A stretch of DNA of 64,000 bases, taken from the NCBI RefSeq assembly GCF_902459745.1, contig NZ_CABPSJ010000001.1, positions 930,001 to 994,000 of the forward strand, read 5' to 3'. The DNA is from Pandoraea communis (GTDB taxonomy: Bacteria > Pseudomonadota > Gammaproteobacteria > Burkholderiales > Burkholderiaceae). A model generated the notes under the pieces. The model saw only the letters and a program-made list of their open reading frames with translations. It was not told the DNA's origin and ran no database searches. The stretch's first letter is position 1; every line of letters starts with the position of its first letter. The translations under genes and the position numbers were made by a program. Shown here piece after piece: positions 50,027 to 57,603 of the stretch.

Positions 50027-50983
50027 ATGCTATTCAGCCTTATGGATCTTGCGCACCAAACGCATCGTATGAGCCGCGTCTCGTTGCGAATTGCGCGGCG
50101 CGTCAGATCTCGGCTCGCCATTGCAATTGCCTGTGTCTCATTCGGATGGCTTGGCAGCGCCTTCGCGCAGGAGAAGGTGAGCTTCCCTTCGCTGGATACC
50201 GGCAACAACGGCGTGCCCGTGATGATCGACGCCTATTTGTTTCGAGCGGCCAACGCCAGCAGCCCCACGCCCGCCGTGGTCTTCATGCATGGCTGCAACG
50301 GGATGTTCACACGCAAGGGCAAGATCGACGGCCGCGAGCTCGATTGGGCGCGGCGGTTGAACGCGCAAGGCTACGCAGTGCTGGCGGTGGATAGCTTCAC
50401 CTCGCGGGCGCAGCCCAGCGAGTGCGCCAACAACGGCCCCGTGCGGCCTTCGGTGGAGCGTCCCGGCGATGCCTACGGCGCATTGCGCTACCTTCAGGCC
50501 TTGCCGGACATCCGCCCGGATCGCATCGCTTTGATGGGTTGGTCGCACGGCGGCGGCACGGTTTTGTTCTCTATCGGCCCCAAGAGCCCCGGACGCACGC
50601 GGGACAAGGACACCCAACCGGCGCCGGATTTTGTCGCCGCCATCGCGTTCTATCCCGGCTGGTGCAACACGAAGGCGCAGGGCGCGGACTGGTCAACGCC
50701 GATCCCGCTGTTGCTCCTCACCGGTGCCGACGACGTCTGGACCAAAGCCGTTCCCTGCGACGCCTTCGTGCACGACGCGACCGCTCGGGGTGCACCGATC
50801 ACGTTCCACATCTATCCGGGTGCGGTGCACGACTTCGACTACCCCAATCTGCCCGTACGCAATCGACCGGAATTCGCCAACCCGCGCACCCACGTCGTGC
50901 CGATCACCGGCACCCAGCCGGAAGCCAGAGACGATGCCATCGCGCGCGTGACAGCATTTCTTGCAAAAGCGTTCGGGAAGTAA
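50027..50983 (+). CDS. Exported alpha/beta hydrolase (dienelactone hydrolase-like)
   Basis: 318 residues. The basic N terminus (RIARRVRSRLAIAIACVSFG) and a cleavage site after GSAFA near residue 47 point to the periplasm. The hydrolase core has VVFMHGCNGMF (oxyanion loop), nucleophile Ser in MGWSHGGGTV, Asp in LLLTGADDVW and His in YPGAVHDFDY. The start at 50027 has a GGGAG ribosome site, but the ATG at 50069 would give a more normal signal peptide. Substrate unknown. Confidence 0.8.
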   Translation: MLFSLMDLAHQTHRMSRVSLRIARRVRSRLAIAIACVSFGWLGSAFAQEKVSFPSLDTGNNGVPVMIDAYLFRAANASSPTPAVVFMHGCNGMFTRKGKIDGRELDWARRLNAQGYAVLAVDSFTSRAQPSECANNGPVRPSVERPGDAYGALRYLQALPDIRPDRIALMGWSHGGGTVLFSIGPKSPGRTRDKDTQPAPDFVAAIAFYPGWCNTKAQGADWSTPIPLLLLTGADDVWTKAVPCDAFVHDATARGAPITFHIYPGAVHDFDYPNLPVRNRPEFANPRTHVVPITGTQPEARDDAIARVTAFLAKAFGK

Positions 50984-51066: not shown

Positions 51067-51312
51067 TTTTCCACTGGAAATCCACAGCTTATTCATGAAA
51101 AAAGCCGGGGATATCCACAGGAAATCCACCGGCTTGCTCTGGGTTGTGCACGGCATATCCACCACCTATCCACAGGATATTCACCGGTTATCTGTATTGC
51201 TCAGGCGACTTATCCCCTGGCTTTCCACCGGCTATCACCTGGCTATCCACAGGGTTGCCCACAAGGGCTTCACAGCTTACTCACAGTGTTATCGACAGAC
51301 TTGTCCACAGAC
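51067..51312 (+). repeat. Array of about 22 DnaA-box-like units in an 11-bp register
   Basis: Units read TTTTCCACTGG, AAATCCACAGC, TTATTCATGAA and so on; the consensus is NTATCCACMGG, close to the DnaA box TTATCCACA. The first 17 units (51067-51253) keep an exact 11-bp step; then five looser units of 10-13 bp end with TTATCGACAGAC and TTGTCCACAGAC. TATCCACAGG occurs exactly three times (51112, 51167, 51244). Units at 51100, 51133 and 51199 are badly decayed. No unit is a perfect TTATCCACA, but several differ by one base. All face the same way. Confidence 0.85.
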
Positions 51313-51500: not shown

Positions 51501-54500
51501 CTACTTCGCCGTGGCGGCTTCCTCCGACTTCGTTGTCGATACCCCGGACGCCGCCGTCTGCGCGAGTACCGGTTTGAGCGCAACACCGGTATGACTCGCA
51601 GCAACCTTCGTCAGCGCATCGGGCGACATCGCCGCCACCACTGTCCCGCCGTTCTTGCCGCCTTCCGGCCCCATGTCGACGATCCAGTCCGCCTCGGCAA
51701 TCACATCGAGGTTGTGCTCGATCACAACAACGGTATGCCCGCCGTTCACCAGCCGGTGCAGCACATTGATGAGCCGCGCCACGTCCGCCATGTGAAGGCC
51801 AACCGTCGGCTCGTCGAGTACATACAGCGTGTGGGGCGGCTTCTGCCCGCGCCGCGTGATGTCGTCGCGGACCTTGGTCAACTCCGTCACCAGCTTGATA
51901 CGTTGCGCTTCGCCGCCCGACAGCGTCGGCGACGGCTGTCCCAATGTGAGATAGCCAAGCCCGACGTCCTTCATCAGTTGCAGCGGATGGGCAATGCTCG
52001 TCATCGACGCGAAGAATTCGACGGCTTCGTCCACTTCCATCGTCAGCACATCGCCAATGCTCTTGCCGCGCCAGGTGACGGCCAGCGTCTCGGCATTGAA
52101 GCGCTGACCGTGACACACGTCACACAGCACCTTCACGTCGGCAAGAAAGCTCATGCCGATGGTGCGCACGCCTTGTCCTTCGCATGCCGGACAACGGCCG
52201 TCGCCTGTGTTGAACGAGAATCGCGATGCCGAGTAACCGCGCGCACGTGCTTCGAGCGTATCCGCAAACAGCCGTCGAATCGTGTCCCAGAAGCCGATGT
52301 ATGTGGCCGGGCACGAGCGGGGTGTCTTGCCGATGGGCGTCTGGTCGACTTCGAGTACGCGATCAATCGCCTCCCAGCCGGTCACCGACTCGCAGCCATG
52401 CCACGCGTGCACCACCGGACGGCGCGGTTCTGCGGATACCGCCGACTTCGCGCGCGGCTTGCCATCCGCTTTCACTGCATGACGCACCGTGCCCTTGCGC
52501 GCACGTCGCTCCGCCGGTGACGACAATACCGAACGCCCCACCGCATCGAGCAGGTTCGTCATCAGCACGTCGCGTGCCAACGTCGATTTTCCGGAGCCGG
52601 AGACACCGGTAATCGCCGTAAGCCGCGATAACGGCAACGACGCCGTCACGTGCTTCAGGTTATGCAGCGTTGCACCGTGCACCGCCAGCCAGTTCGGCGG
52701 CACCGCCTCGACACCCTTGGCAGACGCCCTCACCTCACGGCGCGGTTCAAGCGGATGCTGCAACGGATGCGCCAGGAACTTGCCGGTGAGCGACTCGGGG
52801 TGGGCGGCCAGATCGGCCACACTGCCCTGCGCGACGAGCGTGCCGCCTCGTTTGCCCGCGCCCGGACCAATGTCGATGATGTGATCGGCGCGACGAATCG
52901 TATCTTCGTCATGCTCGACCACGACCAGCGTGTTGCCCTGATCGCCCAGCTTGCGCAACGCGCCGAGCAGAATGCCGTTATCGCGCGGGTGCAAGCCGAT
53001 GGTCGGCTCGTCCAGCACATAGCAAACGCCCTGCAGGTTGCTGCCCAACTGCGCCGCCAGGCGAATGCGTTGCGACTCGCCGCCCGAGAGCGTCGGCGCG
53101 GCGCGATCGAGCGTGAGGTAGCCGAGCCCGACTTCCTCCAGAAATTCCAGACGCCCCTGAATCTCGCTGATCAGATCGCGCGCGATGCTCGCATCGCGCC
53201 CGTGCAGTTCGAGTTGCTGAATCCACGCGCGCACGTCGCTCACGGTCCACTGCGCGACGTCGGAGATCGCGTGTTCGTCGAACGTCACCGCACGCGCGAC
53301 GGTATTGAGCCGTGCACCGTGGCAATCCGGACACGGCTGATCGCCCACGTCTTCCGGCTCCTGCTCCTGCGACGGCAGCGAATGCTCACGCCCCCGGTTG
53401 TCCTGATTGAGCACCGTGTCGTCGAACGCTTCGCGCTGCTCGCGCGTAAGCGCGAGACCCGTGCCCACACACGTCGAACACCAGCCGTGCTTGCTGTTGA
53501 ACGAGAACATGCGCGGATCGAGATCCGGATAGCTCGTGCCGCACACCGGGCACGCGCGCTTGACCGAGAACACCTCGATCTCGCCCACGCCTTCACCCGG
53601 CTGTTCATTGGACATGGTGTCGCCGAGACCGTCGAGCGGGGCGAGCAGATGCATGACACCCTTGCCCAACTCGAGCGCCGCCGCGAGCAACGTGCGCAGC
53701 AAGCCTTCGTTCTCGGGCGCGATCACCACGTCGCCCACCGGCAGTTCGATCGTGTGCTCACGGAAGCGATCGAGCTTCGGCCACGGATCGACCGGCAAGA
53801 ACACGCCATCGACACGCAGGTGCGAATGCCCGCGCGCCTTGGCCCACTTCGCCAGATCGGTGTAAATCCCCTTGCGGCCCACCACCAGCGGTGCGAGCAA
53901 GCCCACGTGCTGGCCGCGACGGTCACGCATCAGTTGTGCAACGATGGAATCCGGACTCTGCGCCGTGACAGGCGCACCGTCATGAATGCAGTGCTGAATG
54001 CCGAGCTTGACGTACAGCAGACGCAGGAAGTGCCAGACTTCCGTCGTCGTTGCCACGGTACTCTTGCGCCCGCCGCGCGACAGACGCTGCTCGATGGCGA
54101 CGGTCGGCGGAATGCCGTACACGGCGTCCACTTCCGGACGCCCCGCCGGCTGCACGATGGACCGCGCATAAGCATTGAGCGACTCGAGATAACGGCGCTG
54201 CCCTTCGTTGAAGAGAATATCGAACGCGAGCGTCGACTTACCCGACCCCGAAACACCGGTAATCACACTGAACTTGCCGCGCGGAATCGCAACGTCGAGC
54301 GACTTCAAGTTGTGCTCGCGTGCATTGACGATACGAATATCATCGCCACCCGCAGGCTTACGATGCGCGCGCGCTGCACGCAACGCCGTTTGCAGCGGCA
54401 TGCCGGGGTCGCCAGCAGGTCTGGCCGCCGCCACCGCTTGCCCCGGCGCGACCACCGTGCGTTCGTAGTCGGCCAAGGCGCGTCCGGTATGCGAACCCTC

Positions 54501-57431
54501 GCACGCGATCACCTGCGCAAGGGTGCCCGCGCACAGTACTTCGCCACCGCCTTCGCCGCCTTCCGGCCCGAGGTCGATGATCCAGTCGGCGGCACGCACC
54601 ACGTCGAGGTTGTGTTCGATGACGAGCAGCGAGTTACCGCCATCGAGCAACTTGCCGAACGCCCGCATGAGCTTGGCGATGTCGTCGAAGTGCAGCCCCG
54701 TCGTCGGCTCGTCGAAGATGAAAAGACGACCGCGATGCGCGACCTTCTGTCCGCTCGCGGTCTTCTTCTGCGCAGCTTCCGCGAGGAAGCCCGCCAGTTT
54801 CAGACGCTGCGCTTCGCCGCCCGAGAGAGTCGGCACGGGCTGCCCCAGCTTCACGTATTCGAGACCGACGTCCACGATCGGCTGAAGCACCCGCAGCACA
54901 TCGCGATCCGACGAAAACAGCTTGACGGCCTCATTGACCGTCAGCTCGAGTACGTCCGACACGCTCAGTTCGCGTATCGCCTCGCCCGGCACGGCGCGTC
55001 GAATCTTCACGTCGAGCACTTCGGCGCGATAACGCTTGCCGTCGCAGTCCGGGCAACGCAGATAGACGTCGCTCAGGAACTGCATCTCCACGTGCTCGAA
55101 GCCCGAGCCGCCGCACGTCGGGCAGCGTCCGTTGCCGGAGTTGAAGCTGAAGGTGCTCGCGGAGTAGCCGCGTTGCAGCGCCACCGGCTCGGCCGCGAAC
55201 AGTTTGCGAATCTCGTCGAAGGCGCCCACGTAGCTTGCCGGGTTCGAGCGCGCCGTCTTGCCGATGGGCGACTGATCGACGAACACCACACCCGACAGTT
55301 GTTCGGCACCGAGGAGTTCGTCGTGTGCGCCCGGCGCTTCGGTCGGGTTGCCAAAGTGACGCGCCAATGCCGGATTGAGCACGTCTTGCACCAGCGTCGA
55401 CTTGCCCGAGCCCGAGACACCGGTCACACACACGAGGCGGCCGAGCGGAATCTCGACGTCGACATGCTTGAGGTTGTGCTCGCGAGCCCCGCTCAACGTC
55501 AGACGCGGTGTGCCGGCATCGACCGGACGCGCCCGCCAGTTCGACGCATTCGCCACATGCTTTCGTCCACCCAGATAGTTGCCGGTCAGCGTGTCGGCGT
55601 GACGTACTTCCTCGGGCGTGCCATCGAAGACGATCTGACCGCCACGTTCGCCCGGCCCCGGTCCCATGTCGATCACGCGGTCGGCCGCGAGCATCACCGC
55701 CGGGTCGTGTTCGACCACCACGAGCGTATTGCCCGCGTCGCGCAGACGATGCATCGCGGCGACGATACGGTCCATGTCGCGTGGATGCAGGCCGATACTC
55801 GGCTCGTCCAGCACGAAGAGCGTGTTGACGAGCGACGTGCCAAGCGCCGTCGTGAGGTTGATACGTTGCACTTCGCCCCCCGAGAGCGTACGGCTCTGGC
55901 GGTCGAGCGTGAGGTAGCCGATGCCGACGTCGCACAGATACTTCAGACGCGTGCCGACTTCCTCCTGCAACAGCTTGAGGGCATCGTCGAGCAGGCTCGA
56001 CGGCAAGGTAAGCGAATCGAAGAACTGACGCACACGCGAAATCGGCATGAGCATCAGGTCGTGCATGGTGAGGCCCGGCAGCGCTTCGAGTTGCTCGCGC
56101 GACCACGACACCCCGCGCGGCATGAAGCGCTGGGCGGGCGGCAGCACGGCGTCGGCGTTCTCTTTCGAGCCGAGGCGCCACAGCAGGCCTTCCGTCTTCA
56201 GGCGAGCGCCGCCGCAAGTCTCGCAGGTCGTGTAGCTGCGGTACTTCGAGAGCAGCACGCGGATGTGCATCTTGTACGCTTTCGACTCGAGATACCCGAA
56301 GAAGCGGCGAATGCCGTACCACTGCTTGTTCCACTCGCCTTTCCAGTCGGCATCGCCTTCGATGACCCACTCGCGATGCTCGGGCGAGAGCTTCGACCAC
56401 GGCGTATCGCGCGGAATGCCGGCACGGCCGGCGTACTCGAGCAGGTCGTCCTGAATCTCTTTCCAGGCGGGTGTCTGGATGGTCTTGATCGCACCGCCCC
56501 GTAGCGTCTTGCGCTCGTCGGGGATCACCAGACCGAGGTCGACGCCGATCACGCGGCCGAAACCGCGACAGGCCTCGCACGCGCCGTAGGCGGAATTGAA
56601 CGAGAAGAGCGCCGGTTGCGGGTCGGCGTAGTGCAGGTCGCTGTCGGGGCAATGCAAATCCTGCGAGTAGCGCCAGATATCGGGCTCGCCATCGTCGGCC
56701 AGCACGTAGACGTTCACCCGCGCGCGACCGCGCTTGAGCGACGACTCGATGGCTTCCATCGCGCGCACTTTTTCGGTGTTCTGCAAGCGGAACCGGTCGG
56801 CAACGACATCGAGTACCTTTCGGGTGCCGTCGGCCGTTGCGACTTCCCGCTCGGCCTGCACCCGCGTGTAGCCCGACGCCGACAGCCATTGCTCGACTTC
56901 ATCCGCCGTAACGCTGCCCGGCAATTCGACCGGGAACGTGACAACCAGACGCGGATCGCCTTGGGCAGTGCGGGCCATCAAGTCGGCGTAGATCGTCTCA
57001 GGCGTGTCGTGACGCACGGGTTGCGCCGTCTCGCGATCGAACAGCGCCGCCGCGCGGGCGAACAACAGCTTGAGGTGATCGTTGAGTTCGGTCATCGTGC
57101 CGACCGTCGAGCGCGAACTGCGCACGGGGTTGGTCTGATCGATGGCGATGGCCGGCGGAACGCCTTCCACATGGTCGACCTGCGGACGATCCATGCGGTC
57201 GAGGAACTGGCGCGCGTAAGCACTGAAGGTTTCGACGTAGCGACGCTGGCCCTCGGCAAACAGCGTGTCGAAGACGAGACTCGACTTGCCGGAACCGGAC
57301 GGACCGGTCACGACCGTCATCTCACCGGTCTGGAGATCGACGTCGAGGTTCTTGAGGTTGTGCTGGCGGGCGCCACGAATGCGAATGGCGTGGTTTGCCG
57401 ATGGGTCGGGTTTCGGGGATGACTTGTCCAC
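51501..57431 (-). CDS. uvrA: Double-length UvrA: two UvrA units fused in tandem, four ABC ATPase modules
   Basis: 1976 residues, about twice the usual 940. Walker A motifs lie near 43-51 (GPSGSGKSS), 677, 1064 and 1615 (each GVSGSGKST). Four LSGGE signatures lie near 515, 869, 1447 and 1835. An Ala/Pro-rich linker at about 1008-1045 joins the halves. In the first zinc module of the N-terminal half CxxC is CPDS, so one ligand is lost; the C-terminal half keeps CPVC and CSTC. The C-terminal zinc fingers of both halves are complete. It should act as a pre-formed UvrA dimer in nucleotide excision repair. Such fusions occur in Burkholderiales, usually beside a normal uvrA elsewhere. A LexA box lies upstream. 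Confidence 0.93.
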   Translation of the reverse strand: MDKSSPKPDPSANHAIRIRGARQHNLKNLDVDLQTGEMTVVTGPSGSGKSSLVFDTLFAEGQRRYVETFSAYARQFLDRMDRPQVDHVEGVPPAIAIDQTNPVRSSRSTVGTMTELNDHLKLLFARAAALFDRETAQPVRHDTPETIYADLMARTAQGDPRLVVTFPVELPGSVTADEVEQWLSASGYTRVQAEREVATADGTRKVLDVVADRFRLQNTEKVRAMEAIESSLKRGRARVNVYVLADDGEPDIWRYSQDLHCPDSDLHYADPQPALFSFNSAYGACEACRGFGRVIGVDLGLVIPDERKTLRGGAIKTIQTPAWKEIQDDLLEYAGRAGIPRDTPWSKLSPEHREWVIEGDADWKGEWNKQWYGIRRFFGYLESKAYKMHIRVLLSKYRSYTTCETCGGARLKTEGLLWRLGSKENADAVLPPAQRFMPRGVSWSREQLEALPGLTMHDLMLMPISRVRQFFDSLTLPSSLLDDALKLLQEEVGTRLKYLCDVGIGYLTLDRQSRTLSGGEVQRINLTTALGTSLVNTLFVLDEPSIGLHPRDMDRIVAAMHRLRDAGNTLVVVEHDPAVMLAADRVIDMGPGPGERGGQIVFDGTPEEVRHADTLTGNYLGGRKHVANASNWRARPVDAGTPRLTLSGAREHNLKHVDVEIPLGRLVCVTGVSGSGKSTLVQDVLNPALARHFGNPTEAPGAHDELLGAEQLSGVVFVDQSPIGKTARSNPASYVGAFDEIRKLFAAEPVALQRGYSASTFSFNSGNGRCPTCGGSGFEHVEMQFLSDVYLRCPDCDGKRYRAEVLDVKIRRAVPGEAIRELSVSDVLELTVNEAVKLFSSDRDVLRVLQPIVDVGLEYVKLGQPVPTLSGGEAQRLKLAGFLAEAAQKKTASGQKVAHRGRLFIFDEPTTGLHFDDIAKLMRAFGKLLDGGNSLLVIEHNLDVVRAADWIIDLGPEGGEGGGEVLCAGTLAQVIACEGSHTGRALADYERTVVAPGQAVAAARPAGDPGMPLQTALRAARAHRKPAGGDDIRIVNAREHNLKSLDVAIPRGKFSVITGVSGSGKSTLAFDILFNEGQRRYLESLNAYARSIVQPAGRPEVDAVYGIPPTVAIEQRLSRGGRKSTVATTTEVWHFLRLLYVKLGIQHCIHDGAPVTAQSPDSIVAQLMRDRRGQHVGLLAPLVVGRKGIYTDLAKWAKARGHSHLRVDGVFLPVDPWPKLDRFREHTIELPVGDVVIAPENEGLLRTLLAAALELGKGVMHLLAPLDGLGDTMSNEQPGEGVGEIEVFSVKRACPVCGTSYPDLDPRMFSFNSKHGWCSTCVGTGLALTREQREAFDDTVLNQDNRGREHSLPSQEQEPEDVGDQPCPDCHGARLNTVARAVTFDEHAISDVAQWTVSDVRAWIQQLELHGRDASIARDLISEIQGRLEFLEEVGLGYLTLDRAAPTLSGGESQRIRLAAQLGSNLQGVCYVLDEPTIGLHPRDNGILLGALRKLGDQGNTLVVVEHDEDTIRRADHIIDIGPGAGKRGGTLVAQGSVADLAAHPESLTGKFLAHPLQHPLEPRREVRASAKGVEAVPPNWLAVHGATLHNLKHVTASLPLSRLTAITGVSGSGKSTLARDVLMTNLLDAVGRSVLSSPAERRARKGTVRHAVKADGKPRAKSAVSAEPRRPVVHAWHGCESVTGWEAIDRVLEVDQTPIGKTPRSCPATYIGFWDTIRRLFADTLEARARGYSASRFSFNTGDGRCPACEGQGVRTIGMSFLADVKVLCDVCHGQRFNAETLAVTWRGKSIGDVLTMEVDEAVEFFASMTSIAHPLQLMKDVGLGYLTLGQPSPTLSGGEAQRIKLVTELTKVRDDITRRGQKPPHTLYVLDEPTVGLHMADVARLINVLHRLVNGGHTVVVIEHNLDVIAEADWIVDMGPEGGKNGGTVVAAMSPDALTKVAASHTGVALKPVLAQTAASGVSTTKSEEAATAK

Positions 57432-57587: not shown

Positions 57588-57603
57588 CTGTATATTTGTA
57601 CAG
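57588..57603. promoter_or_regulatory. LexA (SOS) box upstream of uvrA
   Basis: CTGTATATTTGTACAG fits CTG-N10-CAG with the AT-rich core of the classic gamma/beta-proteobacterial LexA site. It is 157 bp upstream of the uvrA start and overlaps a TACAAT -10-like sequence on the minus strand. It implies DNA-damage induction of uvrA. The peptidase gene on the other side starts 105 bp away and could also be affected. Confidence 0.82.

Follow-up and report, generated by a model that had tools for sequence, protein, structure and literature searches.

The window analysed here comprises 64,000 nucleotides of the Pandoraea communis contig NZ_CABPSJ010000001.1 (positions 930,001 to 994,000, forward strand). 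Between the 3' ends of two convergent genes, dlh and uvrA, it carries an array of short sites resembling DnaA boxes. The features are, in positions of the window:

50027..50983, + strand: dienelactone-hydrolase-family gene (dlh; Pfam PF01738), which ends ~80 bp before the array and lies outside the element
51067-51309, + strand: DnaA-box-like array as a whole, 22 same-strand positions (17 in exact 11-bp register and five more)
51067..51253, + strand: main array, 17 positions at an exact step of 11 bp with the folded consensus NTATCCACNGG; 11 pass the genus matrix, the rest are degenerate
51078..51088, + strand: left end unit AAATCCACAGC, by which 26 of 27 loci were anchored on the left
51255..51309, + strand: right block of five box-like 9-mers, beginning with TTGCCCACA at 51255, GGCTTCACA at 51266, and TTACTCACA at 51277
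51289..51309, + strand: right end pair, TTATCGACA at 51289 and TTGTCCACA at 51301
51501..57431, - strand: uvrA of double length (1976 aa; NCBIfam NF001503/TIGR00630), whose 3' end faces the array and which lies outside the element

The exact 11-bp step of the 17 units in 51067-51253, described in an earlier note on this DNA, is upheld by self-identity, shuffling, and folding. At lag 11, the self-identity of 51067-51312 amounts to 0.421, whereas none of 1265 other 246-bp segments exceeds 0.349 and 2000 dinucleotide shuffles have a mean of 0.251 and a maximum of 0.357; the peak recurs at lags 22 and 33. An unseeded 11-bp fold of 51067-51253 returns N-T-A-T-C-C-A-C-N-G-G. The array is absent from the output of Tandem Repeats Finder. 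On the plus strand, 5, 11, and 17 sites deviate from TTATCCACA by at most one, two, and three mismatches, respectively (shuffle means 0.09, 0.77, and 4.5; maxima 3, 5, and 12), and the minus strand of the array holds 0, 0, and 1 such sites. The common direction claimed for all units thus holds, with no minus-strand site at up to two mismatches.

Five further units, said to follow at 10-13 bp, are indeed present, but the actual steps to their starts are 12, 11, 11, 12, and 12 bp. A genus-wide matrix accepts 15 of all 22 positions (11 of 17 in register, 4 of 5 in the right block); both this matrix and the profile used below go back to a DnaA-like motif, either as seed or as criterion of selection. 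Inside the array, the boxes are for the most part weak. Decay had rightly been noted for the units at 51100, 51133, and 51199, but this list is incomplete, since those at 51089, 51188, and 51232 fail the matrix too. B-DNA takes ~10.5 bp per turn. With 11 bp per unit, successive sites consequently drift by ~17 degrees, so that the phased layout is retained but the sites follow a gentle spiral rather than the one exact DNA face that had been assumed.

A comparison with relatives showed units and phase to be conserved in the genus. By DNA search the region was found in 27 of 32 genomes. A 66-position profile detected an array in 26 of the 32, including G028, which the DNA search had not yielded; the union of both places an array in 28 of 32 Pandoraea genomes. 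G017, G023, G025, and G030 lack an array by DNA search and by profile. In the 26 genomes for which profile matches at E<=0.001 were obtained, these fall at a single locus per genome; the scoring covered, as a rule, 150 out of the several hundred first-look candidates in a genome. For 27 loci, 407 steps between recognised sites were collected, comprising 202 steps of 11 bp and 86 of 12 bp; steps of 2-9 bp and 24-31 bp do not occur, one step falls into 13-20 bp, and five are overlapping 1-bp steps. A few long steps lead to sites outside the arrays. The matrix finds only 0-3 hits per locus on the reverse strand.

The array has conserved ends and a variable length. All 27 loci share the right end TTATC(G/T)ACAG, with G in 23 of them and T in the other 4, and in the last box six of nine columns are invariant across these loci. 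The distance between the ends is 1-3 modulo 11 in all 26 measurable loci, with 11 different lengths of 45-256 bp and 4 to 23 units between the ends; for this measure the left starts were set by hand, L026 was omitted for want of a left anchor, and G028 lies outside the set. Since the loci share ancestry, the 26 do not count as independent, and whole-unit changes in length are also an expected outcome of recombination between repeats. In case of G008, G010, and G029 the arrays are short, with the middle mostly lost and both ends kept.

Degenerate units and length shifts by whole units are what a neutral, decaying tandem repeat might leave behind. Against such an extremely improbable reading stand the column identities, which on the right side are 0.785 inside (61 columns) versus 0.458 outside the array (40 columns) in an ungapped alignment of 27 loci on the right anchor, anchor columns excluded, where indels in the flank depress the outside value. 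Also opposed to it are the presence of the right-end anchor box in every one of the 27 loci and the 12, 22, 12, 12 spacing of the right block, which is seen again in most of them. On the left side, the corresponding values for 26 loci are 0.757 inside versus 0.576 outside, again excluding the anchor columns; the left anchor was picked by a search for TCCACA, and its own identity is therefore no evidence. The array is not a decayed simple repeat.

The gene context of the arrays changes within the genus. A dlh match is missing near the array of G018, and both dlh and metZ are missing in case of G008, G010, and G029. For G015, no match to uvrA turned up on either side of the array (over ~8 kb and 11 kb, respectively), and the 14 kb around the array of G028 contain no match to any of eight window genes. 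Due to the array of G015 without uvrA and that of G028 without any of the eight genes, the association of uvrA with the array is incidental. The adjacency to an SOS-linked uvrA had been stressed before; a site at 57588, CTGTATATTTGTACAG, which we take to be LexA-like from the presumed consensus, does lie 157 bp upstream of the uvrA start, but the array is situated at the uvrA 3' end, ~6 kb from the promoter. The varying neighbours also speak against a role as roadblock or terminator, in which a DnaA oligomer would block read-through between convergent genes. The position between the 3' ends of dlh and uvrA would suit such a role, and E. coli DnaA can impede transcription near terminators according to passages of PMC10950094, yet we consider it quite improbable.

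The array of G028 (L291:6280-6390, on G028:C4) has as neighbours a flavin amine oxidase gene and a frame resembling cytochrome c, which was recognised by eye. The neighbour gene did not serve to place this array, as some match to it exists in 32 of 32 genomes; besides G028 itself, one match reaches 59% identity and the rest are at ~40% or short fragments. The occurrence of this array among other genes may go back either to relocation or to a separate origin.

The earlier statement that no dnaA gene is nearby is correct for the window, but dnaA is located on the same contig ~120 kb from the array. A lasting sign change of the GC skew occurs at ~1,114-1,122 kb, and no lasting switch is seen near the array at 981 kb. 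A single 10-kb stretch, at 1,050 kb, likewise has a weakly positive skew. At L071:1900-2600 (G000:C1:1121900-1122600), a TAGTAGTAG trio, an AT-rich stretch, and perfect DnaA boxes occur together near the skew minimum. This locus, ~20 kb from dnaA and ~141 kb from the array, is likely oriC; 31 of the 32 genomes of the genus contain a match to it, which in three cases extends over ~100 bp only. Another DnaA-box cluster (L073; G000:C1:1173171-1173335) is found upstream of a gene that we take to be gidA/mnmG-like, followed by the palindrome GTTTCACGTGAAAC, presumably parS-like.

In all 20 genomes with both loci on one contig, the array lies 56-150 kb from oriC, with nine main contigs treated as circles, five of which are single-contig genomes; the remaining eight arrays lie on contigs other than that of oriC. 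The orientation of the array relative to oriC is reversed in 4 of these 20 genomes. The closeness to oriC could reflect inherited gene order.

The array had also been proposed as a second initiation site, which it probably is not. A DnaA-trio is present in 0 of 28 arrays versus 30 of 30 oriC-like loci, the latter count being partly built in, since these loci were found by similarity to trio-bearing sequence. The lowest GC content in any 50 bp has a median of 0.42 in the arrays versus 0.24 in the oriC-like loci. Like units on two insect-symbiont plasmids, one with trio-like repeats adjoining (see below), would be in line with a second or dormant chromosomal origin, but with neither trio, AT-rich stretch nor lasting skew switch at the array, and with a separate trio-bearing locus matched across the genus, this is highly improbable.

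Of the recognised types of DnaA-box loci, the array agrees with a cluster outside oriC, a known kind, in that 11 sites with up to two mismatches lie within 246 bp at ~141 kb from the oriC-like locus. The trio or AT-rich unwinding element and the skew switch of an oriC are missing at the array. In the three-box core of DARS, boxes are oppositely oriented; the minus strand of the array offers no site at up to two mismatches. Iteron origins of Rep proteins have a linked rep gene and iterons of 17-22 bp; here the period is 11, and no rep was detected among the 7 neighbouring proteins scanned. The IHF consensus WATCAANNNNTTR, expected for datA, is missing within ~200 bp in 27 of 28 loci, where the strict consensus may miss real sites. 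The datA-like or DARS-like site suggested in the earlier note is thereby not borne out in the strict sense.

That the sites are DnaA boxes is suggested by several lines of evidence, and on these DnaA very probably binds the array. The consensus over 27 loci, TTATCCACAGG, equals the DnaA box plus GG; it derives from the seeded matrix, but the unseeded fold agrees with it, and the closeness to the DnaA box that had been remarked on is thus sustained. The DnaA of this genome aligns with the domain IV structure 1j1v along 92 of 94 residues (E 6.5e-29) and contains GGRDHTTV, a signature which we assume to be linked to box recognition. A non-DnaA protein preferring TTATCCAC-like sites might bind the array instead. 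Such a protein could account for the right-end anchor box, which has G or T at position 6 versus C in the canonical box, and for the looseness of position 9, and the similar array of plasmid pSOE2 is accompanied by a RepA-type initiator gene as well. Considering the 27-locus consensus and the family genus g12, in which similar boxes occur in 11-12-bp steps beside dnaA, this is unlikely.

In the family, a strict three-unit pattern matched 10 of 299 genomes and missed the array in this window. Profile R1, built from 26 stretches chosen for their likeness to TTATCCACAGG, gave 42 of 150 at E<=0.01 over the family. All 12 g12 loci examined carry dnaA or yidC matches and thus lie at a likely oriC; four loci from other genera are without dnaA and yidC matches. 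At E<=1e-4, R1 gave 9 of 300 over the order and 15 of 398 over the phylum, both counts including G000. In G625, which belongs to another family of the phylum, about a dozen imperfect same-direction units, mostly in 11-bp steps, are located at the end of a contig, with an AAA_21 gene close by (L320, last 300 bases; G625:C57:32642-32702). Due to this comparable array, long phased arrays are not confined to Pandoraea. The scan of genome contigs covered at least 118 stretches, a sample; Rfam returned three matches, all far below the gathering scores, and the phage search gave no match.

Perfect repeats were observed on two plasmids. pSOE2 of Pantoea edessiphila (L175:3417-3620) carries fourteen perfect TTATCCACAGG units, arranged as two runs of seven with a trio-like TAGTAATAG close to each run, in addition to a RepA-type gene, and its array is perhaps part of the plasmid origin. 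The only record returned by the plasmid search, Buchnera pTrp (L334:1-125 and last 125 bases), has 22 perfect units of the TTATCCACCGG type, which span the ends of the record; its annotated genes are trpE and trpG in an incomplete gene table. Both share with the Pandoraea arrays the unit TTATCCAC(A/C)GG and the 11-bp steps but differ in the perfection of their repeats. At L311, which comes from another family of the order, about six box-like units in 11-bp steps lie just upstream of a gene for a DnaB helicase (37-1440, - strand). On a contig of Candidatus Dependentiae (L136:4503-4796), 20 perfect 11-bp TTATCCACCAC repeats are arranged around 100 consecutive N; a uracil-DNA-glycosylase gene and a NusA-like gene are nearby.

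A similar geometry is found in E. coli oriC, where the sites of two arrays (R5M, tau2, I1, I2; C1-3, I3) are 9-mers 2 bp apart in one orientation near stronger boxes. PMC6070618 describes these low-affinity sites as unable to bind DnaA by themselves and as being filled starting from anchor boxes; the claim that normal oriC boxes are irregular was too strong, as such 2-bp-separated sites (11-bp steps) are known there. The E. coli arrays comprise four sites each and adjoin an unwinding element, in contrast to 22 positions in Pandoraea, where no such element was found. DARS1 and DARS2 of E. coli are likewise non-coding DnaA-box loci, but are built on a three-box core (in DARS2 plus IHF and Fis sites), unlike the direct repeats seen here.

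Grouped DnaA boxes outside oriC are shared with the oriC-proximal clusters of B. subtilis, a member of a different phylum. The Pandoraea array differs from these in being one per genome, in its 11-bp phase and single direction, and in its 22 positions. Removal of six such clusters led to early initiation (Okumura 2012, as reviewed in PMC5295017), and elsewhere the same review grants these clusters no significant role in initiation. In E. coli, DnaA boxes are enriched near oriC and linked to titration, an old idea for which direct evidence is recent, according to PMC12371093.

We infer that the array is an oriC-proximal platform for DnaA assembly without an unwinding element, serving as a DnaA sink by titration, and assign a probability of roughly 0.55 to this reading of the sequence. 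DnaA would occupy the stronger boxes first, above all the conserved right end, and further DnaA, probably ATP-bound, would then line up head to tail on the weaker boxes at their 11-bp spacing, in the manner of the low-affinity 2-bp-spaced arrays of oriC. Since neither trio nor AT-rich DNA lies alongside, the oligomer would be unable to open the duplex, and the array would thus act as a sink. At 56-150 kb from oriC it would be copied soon after initiation, whereupon the trapping sites would double and free DnaA would be held below the level for re-firing oriC. The 4 to 23 units between the ends argue against a sink, as a pure need for capacity would not predict such variation, and so does the fact that four of 32 genomes manage without an array.

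Beyond storage, DnaA assembled at the array could hydrolyse its ATP and thereby be inactivated, as in a datA-like switch. Boxes in the same direction are the layout for Arg-finger contacts between ATP-DnaA molecules, and head-to-tail contacts of ATP-DnaA follow same-direction boxes, according to excerpts of PMC10316083. The array is moreover near oriC, as datA is according to PMC4585315, and both would be DnaA-binding non-coding loci fairly near oriC, for which binding in Pandoraea is presumed. The datA locus of Escherichia coli has, however, five boxes over ~1 kb and requires IHF (statements in PMC5295017 and PMC10950094), as opposed to contiguous boxes in Pandoraea and loci in which the strict IHF consensus is almost always missing, so that hydrolysis at the array appears rather unlikely.

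Returning to the sink by titration, a more specific version may tentatively be considered, though we hold it to be doubtful. The array would be a “decoy origin”, a platform of ~20 sites for a head-to-tail DnaA filament with the geometry of oriC, in which the ends are conserved and the filling varies. Soon after each initiation, and without IHF, it would bind ATP-DnaA in a cooperative manner. If so, ATP-DnaA would be gauged via competition with oriC for the same oligomer, and not by storage of single molecules.

In the open-licence literature, mostly at the level of titles and abstracts, neither DnaA sites in Pandoraea nor a phased 11-bp array outside oriC were encountered. A single 11-bp-phased array of ~20 boxes in one direction near oriC is thus not among the printed cases found, which does not establish its absence from print. 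Being compact, single, strongly phased, near oriC, and excisable in one step, the array would allow titration, ATP hydrolysis, and cooperative filament formation to be separated outside the usual models. A ready-made series for this purpose exists in nature, given that arrays range from 4 to 23 units between the ends, that one of them is found among other genes, and that four genomes have no array.
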